Positions 9,432 through 15,005 of a DNA stretch of 37,527 nucleotides are shown in pieces. The notes beneath the pieces are model-generated. The model was given only the letters and a program-made list of their open reading frames with translations. It was not told the origin of the DNA and made no database searches. A program made the position numbers and the translations under genes. The first letter of the stretch is position 1; each line of letters opens with the position of its first letter. The stretch comes from an uncultured Eubacteriales bacterium (GTDB lineage Bacteria; Bacillota; Clostridia; Oscillospirales; Oscillospiraceae). The stretch spans positions 1 through 37,527 of the forward strand of contig ONCI01000013.1 of NCBI GenBank assembly GCA_900316255.1, read 5' to 3'.

Positions 9432-9477
9432 AAGTAGGAGCGGCTATCAGCCGCCCGCTCCCCTCGTCCCCCGTCTG

Positions 9478-9540
9478 TGCTTCCCCCAGCGGTGGAGGCT
9501 CCCGCGAATCGGGTGGTGAGGGAGAGCCCCGCCCCCCCTC
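9478..9540. repeat. Hairpin repeat related to the one at 6107
   Basis: It shares TGCTTCCCCCAGCGG and GGTGAGGGAGA with the repeat starting at about 6107. It is a partial copy with no coding content. Confidence 0.5.
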
Positions 9541-9595: not shown

Positions 9596-9976
9596 TCAGT
9601 CTGTGAACATCTCCGCCGGATCCATGAGCGGCAGAATAATCGGAGAAGCGAGAGCGGTCGTGGTCAGGTTCGTGACCATGGTTCTTGCATACGGAAGAAT
9701 AGCACGCACGGCTTGGTACTTGAGGTATTCTTTGATTTGCTCTTCCGGAGTGTCATCGATGGTAAAAGCTCCGGTAATATCCACCGTGATATCGATGGGG
9801 AAGGCATTCTCTTCCGTATTTTTCAGTTCAACGATCAGCCGCACGAAACCGGTATTTCCGCTCTCGACCCAATAGTTCCTGGTGAATTTGGGGACAACAG
9901 AAAACTCCCCGTCTTCCAGGTAATTATTCTTGATGCTCAGTTCATTGATGATGATTTGAAATCTGATGTTTGCCAT
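9596..9976 (-). CDS. SecB-like chaperone of a toxin-antitoxin-chaperone (TAC) module
   Basis: 126 aa, close to SecB length. The C-terminal two thirds match the SecB pattern: VDITGAFTIDD, then KYQAVRAILPYARTMVTNLT, then PIILPLMDPAEMF, compared with the ILFPYAR...LAPVNFDALF end of proteobacterial SecB. Start has AAAGGAG nine bases upstream. It is the last gene of a toxin-antitoxin-chaperone operon, 12 bp after the antitoxin stop. In known TAC systems (for example Mycobacterium tuberculosis HigBA1 with Rv1957), a SecB-like protein binds the antitoxin tail, protects it from proteolysis and aids its folding. Gram-positive bacteria usually lack housekeeping SecB, so the solitary module role is favoured over export. 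Confidence 0.82.
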   Translation of the reverse strand: MANIRFQIIINELSIKNNYLEDGEFSVVPKFTRNYWVESGNTGFVRLIVELKNTEENAFPIDITVDITGAFTIDDTPEEQIKEYLKYQAVRAILPYARTMVTNLTTTALASPIILPLMDPAEMFTD

Positions 9977-9988
9977 AGTCTTTCTCCT

Positions 9989-10378
9989 TTATGCCGGTGC
10001 CAAAATGCCGGGATAGCTTCTGTATCGGTAAACATACGGCTGAGTCCTGTAACTCGTGCTCTGTCTCGTGTCGATCGTGGCGCTGCCGCGGATCTCCGCG
10101 ATTTTCTGCACGTCGATCCGCATTTCCAGCGCCTTTGCCACCTTCAGAACGGTATCGAGCCGCGGCATGGTCTGTGCGGCTTCCAGTCTGGCGATTGCTG
10201 CCTGCTTCATCCCGCACATCTCAGCAAGCTGCTGCTGTGTGAGTCCTCTCCGGATTCTTTCATCGCTCAGCTTTTTGATGATATCTGCGGTTTCCTCTGC
10301 GAGCTCCATCACTTTCTTCTGCTCTTCACCATCCAGTTTGAGTTCTTCCCAAACCGCATCAAAGCTGTTGTTGTTCAT
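9989..10378 (-). CDS. HigA-like XRE antitoxin with aromatic C-terminal tail
   Basis: 129 aa, start preceded by AGGAGGAGG. The HTH lies at residues about 35-90 (IKKLSDERIRRGLTQQQLAE, AAIARLEAAQTMPRLDTVL). After the HTH is an extra tail of about 35 residues ending SYRTQPYVYRYRSYPGILAPA, rich in Tyr and hydrophobic residues. In TAC antitoxins the segment after the HTH is the chaperone-addiction (ChAD) region, and this tail is the natural candidate. The gene overlaps the toxin gene by 20 bp and precedes the SecB-like gene. It probably neutralises the toxin and represses the operon promoter through the palindrome near 10756. Confidence 0.85.
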   Translation of the reverse strand: MNNNSFDAVWEELKLDGEEQKKVMELAEETADIIKKLSDERIRRGLTQQQLAEMCGMKQAAIARLEAAQTMPRLDTVLKVAKALEMRIDVQKIAEIRGSATIDTRQSTSYRTQPYVYRYRSYPGILAPA

Positions 10379-10733
10379 CCTTGTGCCTCCTCCTGTATTC
10401 TTTCATTTCCTTGATAGCTTTATCAATTTCACTGGGCGGAGCCTTCTGCCCCTGCTTCTTAAAGGCATGCAACAGAACAAACTTCTTTCCGGTAAAGTGG
10501 AAAAAGAAGACTCTGCTCCCGCCAGGGCGCAATTCCCATATGCCATCCGGCGATTCTTTTCGGATCGTATGCGGGAATACACTATTCACGTTCATCCCGT
10601 GATCCTTCAGACGGCCTACAAACAACCTGATTCTTTCAAGCTCTTCCGTATTATTACTATCCCGGAGTAGCTTAATGTATTCCTCTACAGGCCGTTTGCC
10701 ATTCGCTTTCTGGTACATCTCTACTTCGTACAT
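10359..10733 (-). CDS. HigB/RelE-superfamily toxin (Gp49-like)
   Basis: 124 aa. The core DGIWELRPGGSRVFFFHFTGKKFVLLHAFKKQGQKAPPSEI matches the Gp49/HigB fold, with conserved basic residues (R69, R74, K84, K92, K93, K97) of the type used for ribosome-dependent mRNA cleavage. Start has AGGAG about nine bases upstream. It is first in the operon, the toxin-first order typical of HigBA. By family it would halt translation when the antitoxin is degraded. No frame break is seen, so it appears intact. Confidence 0.87.
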   Translation of the reverse strand: MYEVEMYQKANGKRPVEEYIKLLRDSNNTEELERIRLFVGRLKDHGMNVNSVFPHTIRKESPDGIWELRPGGSRVFFFHFTGKKFVLLHAFKKQGQKAPPSEIDKAIKEMKEYRRRHKDEQQQL

Positions 10734-10755
10734 ACTGTTCTATCTCCTGAGCCGT

Positions 10756-10809
10756 ATAACGAATTTGTTATTTTTTCTATATTCTATCTTTGTTTTGAGA
10801 GATTGTCAA
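10756..10809 (-). promoter_or_regulatory. TAC operon promoter with palindromic operator
   Basis: On the minus strand TTGACA (10804-10809), a 17-base spacer and TAGAAT (10781-10786). Ten bases downstream is ATAAC-GAATTT-GTTAT (10756-10771), an inverted repeat positioned to block transcription, as expected for an HTH antitoxin operator. Confidence 0.7.
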
Positions 10810-10853
10810 GCAAGAAATCATCTTTTTCCATCCCCCCGAAAGGAGGTGCCCCT

Positions 10854-10931
10854 ATGCGCACCGCTGCTGCCTATCTCCGTGTGTCCACTGAGAAGCGGGA
10901 TGAATACAGCCTTGACTCCCAGCTGAAGCTA
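10854..10931 (+). pseudogene. Truncated 5' end of a serine site-specific recombinase
   Basis: The ATG has AAAGGAGGTGCCCCT upstream. It reads MRTAAAYLRVSTEKRDEYSL then DSQLKL, the N-terminus of large serine recombinases with the catalytic Ser in the YLRVSTE motif. After about 26 codons homology stops abruptly and the frame continues as unrelated residues. The rest of the roughly 500-residue enzyme is absent, so this is the stump of a lost integrative element. Confidence 0.75.
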
Positions 10932-10988
10932 CCGTCTCGTTTTCCACTTTCTCGGCTTCCGGCTGGCGGGAGGAAATTGCTCGAAAAT

Positions 10989-11045
10989 AAAGCAAAATCC
11001 GAACCCATCTCCAACCCGGAAGATGTGGTTCAGATTTATTTGCTT
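10989..11045 (-). terminator. Long imperfect hairpin after the tRNA-Glu-tail element
   Basis: Arms AAAGCAAA...GAACCCATCTCC and GGAAGATGTGGTTC...TTTGCTTT pair imperfectly over about 22 bp. It abuts the tRNA-Glu tail copy, as terminators abut the real tRNA genes. It may end transcription from the MFS operon. Confidence 0.5.
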
Positions 11046-11125
11046 TGGTGACCCGTACGGGACTCCCGCTGCGGGCGGGAAGGGGCGCGGCCCTGACCTG
11101 CCACTGGCAGAGAGGCGGATACCCC
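11046..11125 (-). repeat. tRNA-Glu-tail repeat element, copy 1
   Basis: On the minus strand it contains GTGGCAGGTCAGGGCCGCG, CCCGCCCGCAGCGGG, and ends in GAGTCCCGTACGGGTCACCA, the last 20 bases of the tRNA-Glu gene at 14261-14335. The rest of the tRNA is missing. It resembles the elements at 14004, 14710 and 14859. The stretch 11126-11350 shows no gene. Confidence 0.65.
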
Positions 11126-11350
11126 ATGCAAAAAAGACAGCCCTACCTTAGCGACCCGCGCATAAGACGGGTTTCCGGTTTTGCAGTGTCCCGATCCGGA
11201 GCGCCACCGCTTTTGCCATTTCCGGCTTTTGGGATCGTCCCAGACCCTGAGGATCGCACAAGAGCGAACTGCGCGTTTTCACGCTTCCGATGATTCACAA
11301 TTTTATGAAACAGGAATTCCTGTTGAGGAAAGGGAAATACGGTGCATCGT

Positions 11351-12652
11351 CTATAATGTTTTGACATGCCTGTTTGTCAAAAGCAGGACTGCTGTGATCG
11401 TGAACCCTGCCGCGCAGATGACAAGAAGCACTGTGCTGCCGAAAGCCTGAAGCGCCGCTCCCGCCAATACGGAGGCGATCGGGATCATTCCCTGTGAACC
11501 TACGCTTATGATGCTGCCGATCTTGCTGAGCTTGTTTTTTTCCACCCTGCGCTGGACGGTAGTGTTGAGAGGAATGTTGATGAAGGAGAGGAGGAAACCA
11601 ATTGCGAGGCATCCTGCACCGAAAACCAGCAAAAAGGCGTTCAAGGAGACGCCTGAGGCCACCAGCCGCCAGTATCCGATCGCCAGGGCAATCATCACGC
11701 CCGAAAAGACGCACAGCCTTTTGGCAACCTTCAGACCGCATTTCTCCTCCTGCTCTCTGGAGCTCATCATCGCCGCTCCGATCAGGGAACTGACGCCTAC
11801 GCATACGCTGAATACGGATGACCACAGTTCCGGTTTCAGAACGCTGTCGAACAGATAAGCCGGGGCAGATGCCAGGTCCGTCTTGATGAAATAGGGAATG
11901 AAATTACCGGTCACAGGCGTGAAGAAAAAGTTGATGAACAGCGCTGCTCCAATGATGGCCATGATGGCTTTCTGGCCTTTCAGATACAGTATGCCCTCTT
12001 TCATGTCTGAAACCGCGAGACGCAGCGTCATCGGTTCCGCAGAAGACGTGTGATCATAGCGGATCAGCATTTCCGAGATTCCGGAGGCTATAAAGCATGC
12101 GCCTACCGCCAGAAAAAGTACTTTTAAAGGCAGCACCGCGTACAGAACGCCGGCCAGGACGACACCCAGGATCGACTCCATGGAGTTCTTGACTGAAAAG
12201 TACGCATTCGCCTGCTGTAATTGCTGCGGCTCTACGAGATTCGGCAGCATTGCTCCGGCGGCGGGATTAAAGATGCCGCTGACCACATTGCCCATGATGC
12301 CGAGGATGAACAGGATCGCGATATGCGCTTTCGGCGATGGCAGGATCATCATAAACACTGTGGCAAGAATGATCAGCCCGCCCTTGACGGTATCACAGAC
12401 ATACATGATCTTTGCCTTGTTGAAACGGTCCCCAAGAACGCCGCCGACAGGTGTGAAAAGCAGCAGCGCAACGCCGCAAAGGGCAAGATACAAACCTTGC
12501 AGGAAGGCGTTGTTTCCGCTGACCTCCAGAATATAAAAGCCAACAGCGAAGCTGTACAGAAGCGCGCCCAATTCCGAGACCAGAGCTCCGAAAAAGACCA
12601 GTCGGTAGTTTCTGCTCGCAAATACGTTGATCGCTTTCTTTTCATCGTTCAT
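11351..12652 (-). CDS. MFS efflux transporter (MFS_3/MefA-like)
   Basis: 433 aa with about 12 hydrophobic segments. N-terminal FASRNYRLVFFGALVSELG and GGVLGDRFNKAK (the loop 2-3 motif) fit the macrolide-efflux-like MFS_3 group of proton-driven exporters. The start chosen is ATG 12652, with AAGGAG upstream, overlapping the stop region of the XRE-TPR gene by 11 bp; a longer frame begins inside that gene but is unlikely. Being co-transcribed with the XRE-TPR regulator suggests regulated export of a drug or small molecule; the substrate is unknown. The gene pair is bracketed by tRNA-Glu-tail copies. Confidence 0.82.
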   Translation of the reverse strand: MNDEKKAINVFASRNYRLVFFGALVSELGALLYSFAVGFYILEVSGNNAFLQGLYLALCGVALLLFTPVGGVLGDRFNKAKIMYVCDTVKGGLIILATVFMMILPSPKAHIAILFILGIMGNVVSGIFNPAAGAMLPNLVEPQQLQQANAYFSVKNSMESILGVVLAGVLYAVLPLKVLFLAVGACFIASGISEMLIRYDHTSSAEPMTLRLAVSDMKEGILYLKGQKAIMAIIGAALFINFFFTPVTGNFIPYFIKTDLASAPAYLFDSVLKPELWSSVFSVCVGVSSLIGAAMMSSREQEEKCGLKVAKRLCVFSGVMIALAIGYWRLVASGVSLNAFLLVFGAGCLAIGFLLSFINIPLNTTVQRRVEKNKLSKIGSIISVGSQGMIPIASVLAGAALQAFGSTVLLVICAAGFTITAVLLLTNRHVKTL

Positions 12653-13718
12653 CAGCGGCCAACTCCTTCCAGATCCCTGACAGTTCCTGATTTCCCAGCA
12701 AGGCCAGGACCGTCTCGATGCTCTCCGCCGCCGTCGCGCCAAGCGCATCATTCAAAATGACATCCGTCCGGCGCATGGGATAGCGAAGTGTCCGGATCCC
12801 ATAATCCGGCGTTGCGTCGAACTTCCGGACGGCGGCAAGGACAGCGCGCATAAAACCCTCTGCTTCTTCCGGCTGTCCTCCCAGTGTATGGATATAGGCC
12901 ATCACGGTATACATGCATGCCATGATCTTATCGGCAAAATCTGCTTTTTCTCCCTCCTTGAAGGACTCCAGATACGCGATCAGTCCGGACAGCATTCGCT
13001 TTGCGTCTGCGTATTCCCTGCGGGAGGATAAAACCAGCGCATATCCGATAACGGAATCCACGAGACCGAGTGTGTGGAGCAGTAAAGCTTCGGCGAGAAA
13101 CGGCTCCGCCTCTTCGTGCTTTTTCGGATCCAGCGCCAGCACCATGCCGATCGCATCGCTGTATACACCTCCCACATTATTTTTCTTCAACAGCTCAATG
13201 CACTTTTCGCCTTCACCAAGAAGCATCCAGGCACTCGCCATTTCACCGCTGATCGTCTGCTCGCCGATCTTTGGATCGTGATTCTGCGAAATCAGAAGCT
13301 TTGCCTGCTCATATAATTCCAGGGCTCTTCTGGTTTCAGCGTGGTTTTTGCTGCCGACGCCAAAGAAAGCGTATACCTGAGCGCAGTCATGGACAACTTC
13401 AAAGGAGTTCGGAAACTTTTTGAGCGCCTTTTCCGCTTCGACCAGCGCCTCGGGATCCCTGACCCGGCAGTATTCACGAATTCTCTCTTCCATGGCGGCA
13501 CTATGATTGTCCTTCACTCGGTAGCCCAGAAGAACATCCATTGAGATGTCAAAAAAGTCTGCGATTTCAACAAGCATGCTGAGTTCAGGCGTTGTTTGAC
13601 CCGTTTCCCATTTGTATACTGAGCCGACGGTTACACCCATGGCTTCAGCAAACTGCTCCTGAGTCAAGCGCCGTTCTTTCCGAAATGCGCGGATATTCTC
13701 TGCAAGTGTCAGTTTCAT
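12642..13718 (-). CDS. XRE regulator with TPR-like sensor domain
   Basis: 358 aa from the ATG preceded by GGAGGT; an ATG at 13742 is in frame but lacks a ribosome site. The HTH is at residues 1-60 (LAENIRAFRKERRLTQEQFAE, VGSVYKWETGQTTPELSML). The rest is helical with TPR-like repeats (about 75-300; AETRRALELYEQAKLL, EEAEPFLAEALLL, PEEAEGFMRAVLAAVRKF). Similar XRE-TPR proteins sense peptides or metabolites. It is followed directly by the MFS gene, so it probably controls that exporter. A TATAAT-like -10 lies upstream at about 13756, but no good -35 was seen. Confidence 0.8.
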   Translation of the reverse strand: MKLTLAENIRAFRKERRLTQEQFAEAMGVTVGSVYKWETGQTTPELSMLVEIADFFDISMDVLLGYRVKDNHSAAMEERIREYCRVRDPEALVEAEKALKKFPNSFEVVHDCAQVYAFFGVGSKNHAETRRALELYEQAKLLISQNHDPKIGEQTISGEMASAWMLLGEGEKCIELLKKNNVGGVYSDAIGMVLALDPKKHEEAEPFLAEALLLHTLGLVDSVIGYALVLSSRREYADAKRMLSGLIAYLESFKEGEKADFADKIMACMYTVMAYIHTLGGQPEEAEGFMRAVLAAVRKFDATPDYGIRTLRYPMRRTDVILNDALGATAAESIETVLALLGNQELSGIWKELAADER

Positions 13719-13872
13719 TCCAGTGACCTCCGGAATCATCATGATCTGCGTTTATTATACGTCGACAGACACCGGAAGGGAAGACAATTCCAATACTGAT
13801 AATAAAGATTTTTTACATATTGACAGTATGGGTTTTCTGCGGCTCGTCCGCATGATCCGGGGAAGAACAGTC

Positions 13873-13913
13873 AAAAAACGGACTGCTGCAATCAATACAT
13901 CAATCCGTTTTTT
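13873..13913. terminator. Hairpin with T-tracts on both strands
   Basis: AAAAAACGGA pairs with TCCGTTTTTT around a 21-base loop. It lies in the gene-free stretch 13719-14260, where otherwise only repeats are seen. Confidence 0.4.
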
Positions 13914-14003
13914 GCTTGCCGGTCGTGTCAGACAGATGTCTGAATCAGCTTTTGTTTCAAATCTTTCTTACGAGTCTCGGCCCTTTGGTGAAGCCGGTAT
14001 TAT

Positions 14004-14100
14004 TGGTGACCCGTACGGGCGAAGGGCTCCCCGCCTGCGGGCGGGAAGGGGAGGCTCTGACATGCCGCCGGCAGGGGGCGAATACCCGTACGGGACTCGC
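14004..14100 (-). repeat. tRNA-Glu-tail repeat element, copy 2
   Basis: On the minus strand the unit starts GCGAGTCCCGTACGGG, contains GGCGGCATGTCAGAGCC and CCCGCCCGCAGGCGGGG, and ends CCCGTACGGGTCACCA. The ends duplicate the T-arm/acceptor part of tRNA-Glu, as if the internal sequence had been inserted into it with CCCGTACGGG duplicated. Confidence 0.65.
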
Positions 14101-14585: not shown

Positions 14586-14662
14586 GGAGGGTTAGCTCAG
14601 CTGGTTAGAGCGTCCGCCTCACACGCGGAAGGTCGACGGTTCGAGTCCGCCACTCTCCACCA
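14586..14662 (+). tRNA. tRNA-Val (CAC)
   Basis: 77 nt with encoded CCA. Acceptor GGAGGGT pairs with ACTCTCC (one G-T); the anticodon arm TCCGC-CTCACAC-GCGGA gives CAC, reading GTG; T-loop GGTTCGAGTCC. It is followed by a terminator and two elements that end in its 3' sequence. Confidence 0.93.
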
Positions 14663-14665
14663 AAA

Positions 14666-14700
14666 GCAACAGGCCGCCATTCAGGCGGCCTGTTGTTTTT
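14666..14700 (+). terminator. tRNA-Val terminator
   Basis: CAACAGGCCGCC and GGCGGCCTGTTG form a 12-bp perfect stem with loop ATTCA, followed by TTTTT. Confidence 0.85.
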
Positions 14701-14709
14701 GGGAAAGCC

Positions 14710-14812
14710 CCCGTGCGGACTCGAAGGGAGCGGGAGTGAATGACATGCCGGTGGCATGTCAGAGCCGCGACCCGGCCCGCCCGCAGGCGGGCGAGTTCGC
14801 CACTCTCCACCA
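14710..14812 (+). repeat. tRNA-Val-tail repeat element, copy A
   Basis: It begins CCGTGCGGACTCGAAGGG, the reverse complement of a T-arm, carries the hairpins GACATGCC/GGCATGTC and CCCGCC-CGCA-GGCGGG, and ends GTTCGCCACTCTCCACCA, a copy of the tRNA-Val 3' end without the rest of the tRNA. It is followed immediately by its own terminator. Confidence 0.7.
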
Positions 14813-14850
14813 AAGAAAACAGGCCACCCAAAAGGTGGCCTGTTTTCTTT
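14813..14850 (+). terminator. Terminator after repeat element A
   Basis: AAAGAAAACAGGCCACC pairs with GGTGGCCTGTTTTCTTT, a perfect 17-bp stem. Its inner part resembles the tRNA-Val terminator (ACAGGCC...GGCCTGT). Confidence 0.75.
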
Positions 14851-14858
14851 GGAATAGA

Positions 14859-14962
14859 CCCCGTGCGGACGCGAAGGGAGCGGGAGTGAATGACATGCCG
14901 GTGGCATGTCAGAGCCGTGGCCCGGCCCGCCCGCAGGCGGGCGGGTCCGCCGCTGGCCGCCA
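14859..14962 (+). repeat. tRNA-Val-tail repeat element, copy B
   Basis: Starts 149 bp after copy A. The body (about 14875-14917) is identical to copy A over about 42 bp. Its tail has decayed to GGTCCGCCGCTGGCCGCCA, still recognisable as a tRNA 3' end. It is followed by the hairpin at 14967-15005. Confidence 0.65.
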
Positions 14963-14966
14963 TGCA

Positions 14967-15005
14967 AGAAAGCTCTTTCGCCTTCCGGGGCAAAAGAGCT
15001 TTTTC
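14967..15005 (+). terminator. Terminator upstream of the aminopeptidase promoter
   Basis: AAGAAAGCTCTTT and AAAAGAGCTTTTT form the stem with an internal CC/GG extension and a terminal T-run. A promoter begins 3 bases later. Confidence 0.65.

Follow-up and report, generated by a model that had tools for sequence, protein, structure and literature searches.

A putative HigBA-type toxin-antitoxin-chaperone operon with a SecB-like gene in an uncultured member of the Clostridia

Does the SecB-like gene at this locus belong to a toxin-antitoxin-chaperone (TAC) operon, in which it would be dedicated to the antitoxin, or does it encode an export chaperone lying beside a toxin-antitoxin pair? We addressed this question in a stretch of 37,527 nucleotides from an uncultured Eubacteriales bacterium (contig ONCI01000013.1), called the window below. 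The first-pass annotation had placed the locus in a Clostridia-like genome, and the host, whose genome is 96% complete, indeed falls into the same class as Mageeibacillus, which NCBI puts in Clostridia. It had also described three minus-strand genes in the order toxin, antitoxin and SecB-like chaperone with a 20-bp overlap, a consensus promoter and an inverted-repeat operator. The genes and the promoter were recovered as described, and the features of the locus are as follows.

10781..10809, minus strand, sigma-70-type promoter TTGACA-17-TAGAAT, agreeing with the consensus at 11 of 12 positions
10756..10771, no strand assigned, predicted palindromic operator ATAACAAATTCGTTAT, with its core kept in relatives and unique in the window
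10359..10733, minus strand, toxin of the Gp49/HigB (RelE-like) type, 124 aa, PF05973 at 53.9 bits
9989..10378, minus strand, antitoxin of the HTH_3 (HigA) type, 129 aa, PF01381 at 52.3 bits
9992..10108, minus strand, C-terminal extension of the antitoxin, 39 residues past the HTH end, from length comparison with other antitoxins
9596..9976, minus strand, SecB-like chaperone, 126 aa, PF02556 at 37.9 bits
9547..9588, minus strand, hairpin with a 12-bp outer stem, a possible transcript end judging by its arms and fold energy

Gene order, promoter and operator

The three frames are intact and run from 10733 to 9596 on the minus strand, with 12 bp between the antitoxin stop and the chaperone start and a ribosome-binding site recognisable by eye upstream of each gene. 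All three products score above the curated Pfam cut-offs (23.9 bits for Gp49 PF05973, 23 for HTH_3 and 26 for SecB PF02556), and frames, families and a promoter scan place the toxin, antitoxin and chaperone genes in one predicted operon. Because of this order with its overlap and of the three family matches, we read the locus as a type II TAC operon of the HigBA-SecB kind. We consider this reading very probable, and the earlier claim of a complete TAC operon is thus supported by gene anatomy, families and the chaperone fold described below.

The promoter scan of the region gave four promoter-like sites against 1.8 expected. The operator ATAACAAATTCGTTAT follows the -10 box and precedes the toxin start. 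Taken alone it is weak, because shuffling the 110-nt upstream region 1000 times gave an arm of at least 5 in 693 cases. By comparison with relatives, the predicted operator is real: its core occurs once in the window with 0 expected, and the modules of genome UBA6976 and of a viral contig (L111) carry TTGATAACAAAnATGTTATCAA 5' of their toxins, with 9-bp arms around the same core and a distance to the toxin start of 22-25 nt, similar to that in the window. The earlier claim of an inverted-repeat operator therefore stands on the comparison and not on the repeat itself. The exact core TAACAAANNNGTTA was present in 17 of 113 loci, which are copies of the three TACs (window, UBA6976 and L111) and five two-component HigBA loci (L035, L036, L040, L041 and L053), where it lies ahead of the toxin in each case; the other 23 of the 28 two-component loci are devoid of it. 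Because the core is common to the TAC relatives and these five loci, the window antitoxin probably keeps an operator that predates its link to a chaperone. The hairpin 3' of the chaperone stop has a fold energy of -36.5 kcal/mol (z -5.1), and it is not a classical intrinsic terminator because no T-run follows it.

The toxin and the extended antitoxin

The only solved chain matched by the window toxin at E <=0.1 was the HigB toxin 6af3 (E 3.3e-13), and we take 6af3 and 6af4 to be HigB of S. pneumoniae. Their residues agree with PMC9098466, which names E66, R68, R73, F90 and K92 of that protein as catalytic or core positions. In the alignment to 6af3, counted by hand, these correspond to E67, R69, R74, F91 and K93 of the window toxin, which is expected to act as a ribosome-dependent mRNase. 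Relatives of the toxin were found in 60 of 391 genomes of the class (own genome included), and all 30 toxin-relative loci among the matches listed have an HTH partner. Of the toxin tree little was resolved: the window toxin is on a long branch and the TAC toxins are not united, forming a single clade in 12% of the bootstrap trees.

Among the same 30 listed loci, only the window and UBA6976 are chaperone-linked and 28 are chaperone-less. Together with the solitary SecB-like genes present in the order and the class (neighbourhoods read by eye), the frequency of chaperone-less HigBA in the class would fit an ordinary two-component HigBA, whose antitoxin works alone while the adjacent SecB-like gene has another job. 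This explanation appears improbable in view of the 12-bp spacing between antitoxin and chaperone genes, of the gene order, which is repeated completely in UBA6976 and L111 and as an antitoxin-chaperone pair in RGIG2707, and of the antitoxin ends, which are long only where a chaperone gene follows. The same recurrence of the module in UBA6976 and L111 and of the antitoxin-chaperone pair in RGIG2707 argues for the TAC reading.

The extension comprises 39 residues past the HTH end in the window antitoxin and 40, 43 or 48 in the three other chaperone-linked antitoxins (UBA6976, RGIG2707 and L111). The 28 chaperone-less antitoxins have 2-28 such residues with a median of 5, including two loci where the absence of a chaperone is unsure because the contig stops shortly past the antitoxin (155 nt in L043, 328 nt in L036). 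The difference in length gives P 0.0007, a value that serves as a guide only because the compared rows are related. The chaperone-linked antitoxins of all four loci cluster in a tree built from the HTH part, with a support of 80/88 and in 86% of the bootstrap trees; this grouping and the long extensions are a further argument for a TAC. Aside from aromatic residues and uncharged ends, reading by eye revealed no clear common motif in the four extensions. A predicted structure of the antitoxin was discarded at a pLDDT of 42.

In M. tuberculosis, the chaperone dependence of HigA1 is attributed to its C-terminal extension in PMC5105189 and PMC6377645, and the latter gives the chaperone-binding stretch as WHRLSSYRG, with residues including W108, R110 and Y114. 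The window antitoxin contains VYRYRSYPG, in which R110, S113, Y114 and G116 are matched and W108 is unmatched, in a comparison made by eye for this antitoxin only. Among 24 TAC antitoxins of different kinds, 22 end in two uncharged residues, compared to 3 of 28 chaperone-less HigA proteins and 115 of 214 background frames, and an AA end occurs in 9 of the 24 against 5 of the 214. The window antitoxin ends in -APA, which is uncharged and neither AA nor VA; such an end appears compatible with those of TAC antitoxins and is not a classical signal. This uncharged end, together with two matches to the ClpP family (PF00574) in the own genome, is also in line with the TAC reading.

The chaperone and the question of export

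As claimed at first pass, the chaperone contains both SecB-type patterns, ILPYAR and LPLMDPAEMF. A structure unlike SecB would have spoken against the TAC reading, and the comparison with SecB and Rv1957 instead gave a predicted fold that is SecB-like and also resembles Rv1957, with 16% identity in the structural alignment. This predicted fold and the five conserved toxin positions together argue for a TAC. The chaperone is also matched by the PD-T4-9_C profile (E 1e-9).

By Z score, the predicted fold is closest to export SecBs, and a sentinel role has been proposed for Rv1957 (PMC4257090). Both points would suit an export SecB acting for SecA as well, with the toxin-antitoxin pair monitoring export. 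We regard this explanation as very improbable, because the score of 29.2 bits against the NCBIfam secB model TIGR00809 lies far under the cut-off of 102.8 for export-SecB equivalogs, and because of the distribution of SecB and SecA domains. The search for a second secB proposed at first pass returned no further PF02556 match in the own genome, and there was none in 98 relatives. In the order, 13 of 394 genomes have a match and in the class 17 of 391, the own genome being counted in both and 5 (order) and 2 (class) of the positive genomes scoring under the family cut-off.

SecB docks on SecA at the SEC-C domain, and structure 1ozb is SecB with the SecA C-terminus. Among genomes of the order outside the window's family, 22 of 23 carry this domain in a frame of 910-974 aa, the length by which these frames were assigned to SecA. 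In 37 genomes of the window's genus it occurs in no frame of that length, and two of them have it in shorter frames (250-510 aa). The own genome gave no PF02810 (SEC-C) match, and its SecA is truncated by a contig end. A loss of the domain by which SecA docks SecB may thus have occurred in the genus of the window. Because PF02556 matches are scarce (none else in the genome or in the 98 relatives) and SEC-C is absent from SecA-length frames of the genus, an export role of the chaperone seems unlikely. From the antitoxin extension and the missing SEC-C we infer that the chaperone would instead be dedicated to the antitoxin, and the absence both of another PF02556 match and of SEC-C in SecA-length frames of the 37 genomes favours the TAC reading.

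In the TAC model, the antitoxin would bind the operator and repress the operon, judging by its HTH domain and the conserved palindrome. The toxin would be a HigB-type, ribosome-dependent mRNA-cleaving enzyme, which the antitoxin could neutralise only after the dedicated SecB-like chaperone has bound its labile C-terminal extension. If the chaperone were diverted or lost, the antitoxin would aggregate or be degraded, and the toxin would halt translation. We infer toxicity, chaperone dependence, proteolysis and trigger in this model.

Relatives, mobility and known systems

UBA6976 carries the same three-gene module, with identities of 38, 44 and 38% for toxin, antitoxin and chaperone, and has a Panacea/MqsA-type antitoxin, a ParE toxin, a Fic gene and an Abi_2 gene among its neighbours. 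A named genome scan returned two loci, one of which is the UBA6976 record. The order toxin-antitoxin-chaperone recurs in L021/L062 and in L111, and in RGIG2707 the contig starts within the antitoxin gene, so that antitoxin and chaperone but no toxin were seen. In a tblastn search of 50,697 records of phages and 72,556 of plasmids, neither the window chaperone nor that of L111 had a match. Searching viral contigs with the window chaperone alone or with L061 gave nothing, and searching with a three-row alignment led to L111; the L111 and L062 proteins find the same contig again. The module on L111 is flanked on one side by a RusA-like resolvase and a transcription regulator, and on the other by a gene of 136 aa that weakly matches a transposase family, two terminase subunits and a portal gene. 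For the antitoxin of L111, 11 phage records gave matches covering 54-72% of its length, and the same collection contained no relative of the chaperone. The location of this relative on a phage-like contig suggests that the module moves between bacteria.

In the host, the module occupies a variable slot, as seen by comparing stretches with G033 and G051: G033 and the window have only 11183-13986 in common, at 90% identity, and the outer genes of the window (those as far as 5879 and those from 11436 on) are present in G051 with different genes in between. The module was likely gained horizontally. Adjoining it on the plus strand (10838-10930) is a 5' gene start with a ribosome-binding site, which we take, from its sequence, to be that of a serine recombinase and which is cut where a dispersed repeat (10930-11110) begins. 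This fragment, the dispersed repeats and the lack of PF02556 matches in the 98 relatives could point to an inactive remnant of a mobile element, an explanation that is extremely improbable given three intact frames and the preserved promoter, operator and toxin residues. As for the repeats themselves, 9470-9532 and 10930-11110 are common to many genomes of the genus, and 14003-14087 and 14642-14971 recur inside the window around tRNA genes.

TAC switches are already a known kind of system. According to PMC4257090, 44 of 70 SecB genes outside the alpha-, beta- and gammaproteobacteria are linked to toxin-antitoxin genes, with more than 90% of those genomes lacking a solitary SecB; Firmicutes are among the phyla with SecB sequences, and TACs outside M. 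tuberculosis are published. The TAC of M. tuberculosis consists of HigB1, HigA1 and Rv1957. The window toxin finds 6af3 HigB and not the mycobacterial toxin at E <=0.1, the W108 and VA end of the HigA1 ChAD have no counterpart in the window antitoxin, and the operator core is common to clostridial two-component HigBA (5 of 28 loci). This shared core suggests an origin separate from the M. tuberculosis TAC. By description, the HigBA TAC of Geobacter lovleyi (PMC5105189) likewise combines HigBA, a SecB-like chaperone and a C-terminal extension. CmdTAC/PD-T4-9 (PMC11618068) likewise has a SecB-like chaperone and an antitoxin with an uncharged end, but it pairs an ADP-ribosyltransferase toxin with an antitoxin described as two helices and an unstructured part, whereas the window toxin matches Gp49/HigB only and the window antitoxin is an HTH protein. 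Two-component HigBA (6af3/6af4) provides the closest solved toxin, with the five compared positions kept, but has no chaperone gene and a short antitoxin end. A search by title and abstract, mostly outside the subscription literature, found no published account of this module.

Further TAC-like loci are present in the Bacillota genomes examined here. A second, distant Gp49-HTH-SecB set of the class (L029, 540-1827) has a SecB match of 25.0 bits, slightly under the cut-off. L092 and L026 are MqsA-type TAC-like sets, the SecB of L026 also being slightly under the cut-off. ADP-ribosyltransferase-like, small and SecB-like genes, by eye similar to CmdTAC, occur together in L002, L016, L027, L093-L095, L097-L102 and L107; profile tests of two sets gave support for L027 and weak support for L016. 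L014 (1489-2921, minus strand) may be a TAC whose toxin is an acetyltransferase, with a GNAT acetyltransferase (2355-2921), a 143-aa gene without Pfam match (1921-2352) and a SecB-like gene (1489-1899) of 24.2 bits, under the Pfam cut-off. In L009 (255-1839) and L028 (1468-3076), a SecB-like gene follows two genes without Pfam match above cut-off, the middle one ending in AA in both, which may represent a TAC with an undescribed toxin. L106 (652-2606) contains a SecB-like stretch inside a 404-aa frame, and in L108 and L110 (441-2581) the SecB-like gene is flanked by genes for 333 and 267 aa.

A more far-reaching idea, which we offer tentatively and consider rather unlikely, is that the module would serve Clostridia as an immunity cassette borne by phages and islands. 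In it, an ordinary HigBA pair would have become addicted to the chaperone and the SecB-like protein would be an infection sensor, as CmdC senses capsid; with host SecAs devoid of the SecB docking domain, the SecB fold would persist in these hosts solely for sensing, with no part in export. To the known TACs, this analysis adds a module carried by a phage-like contig, an operator that recurs in some chaperone-less HigBA and the observation on SecA. A predicted intact HigBA-type TAC in a lineage without other secB, where the docking domain of SecA is apparently missing, would allow chaperone addiction to be studied apart from export, and the phage-contig relative and the presence of this operator at some chaperone-less HigBA loci would offer natural before/after pairs for how an ordinary pair becomes chaperone-addicted.
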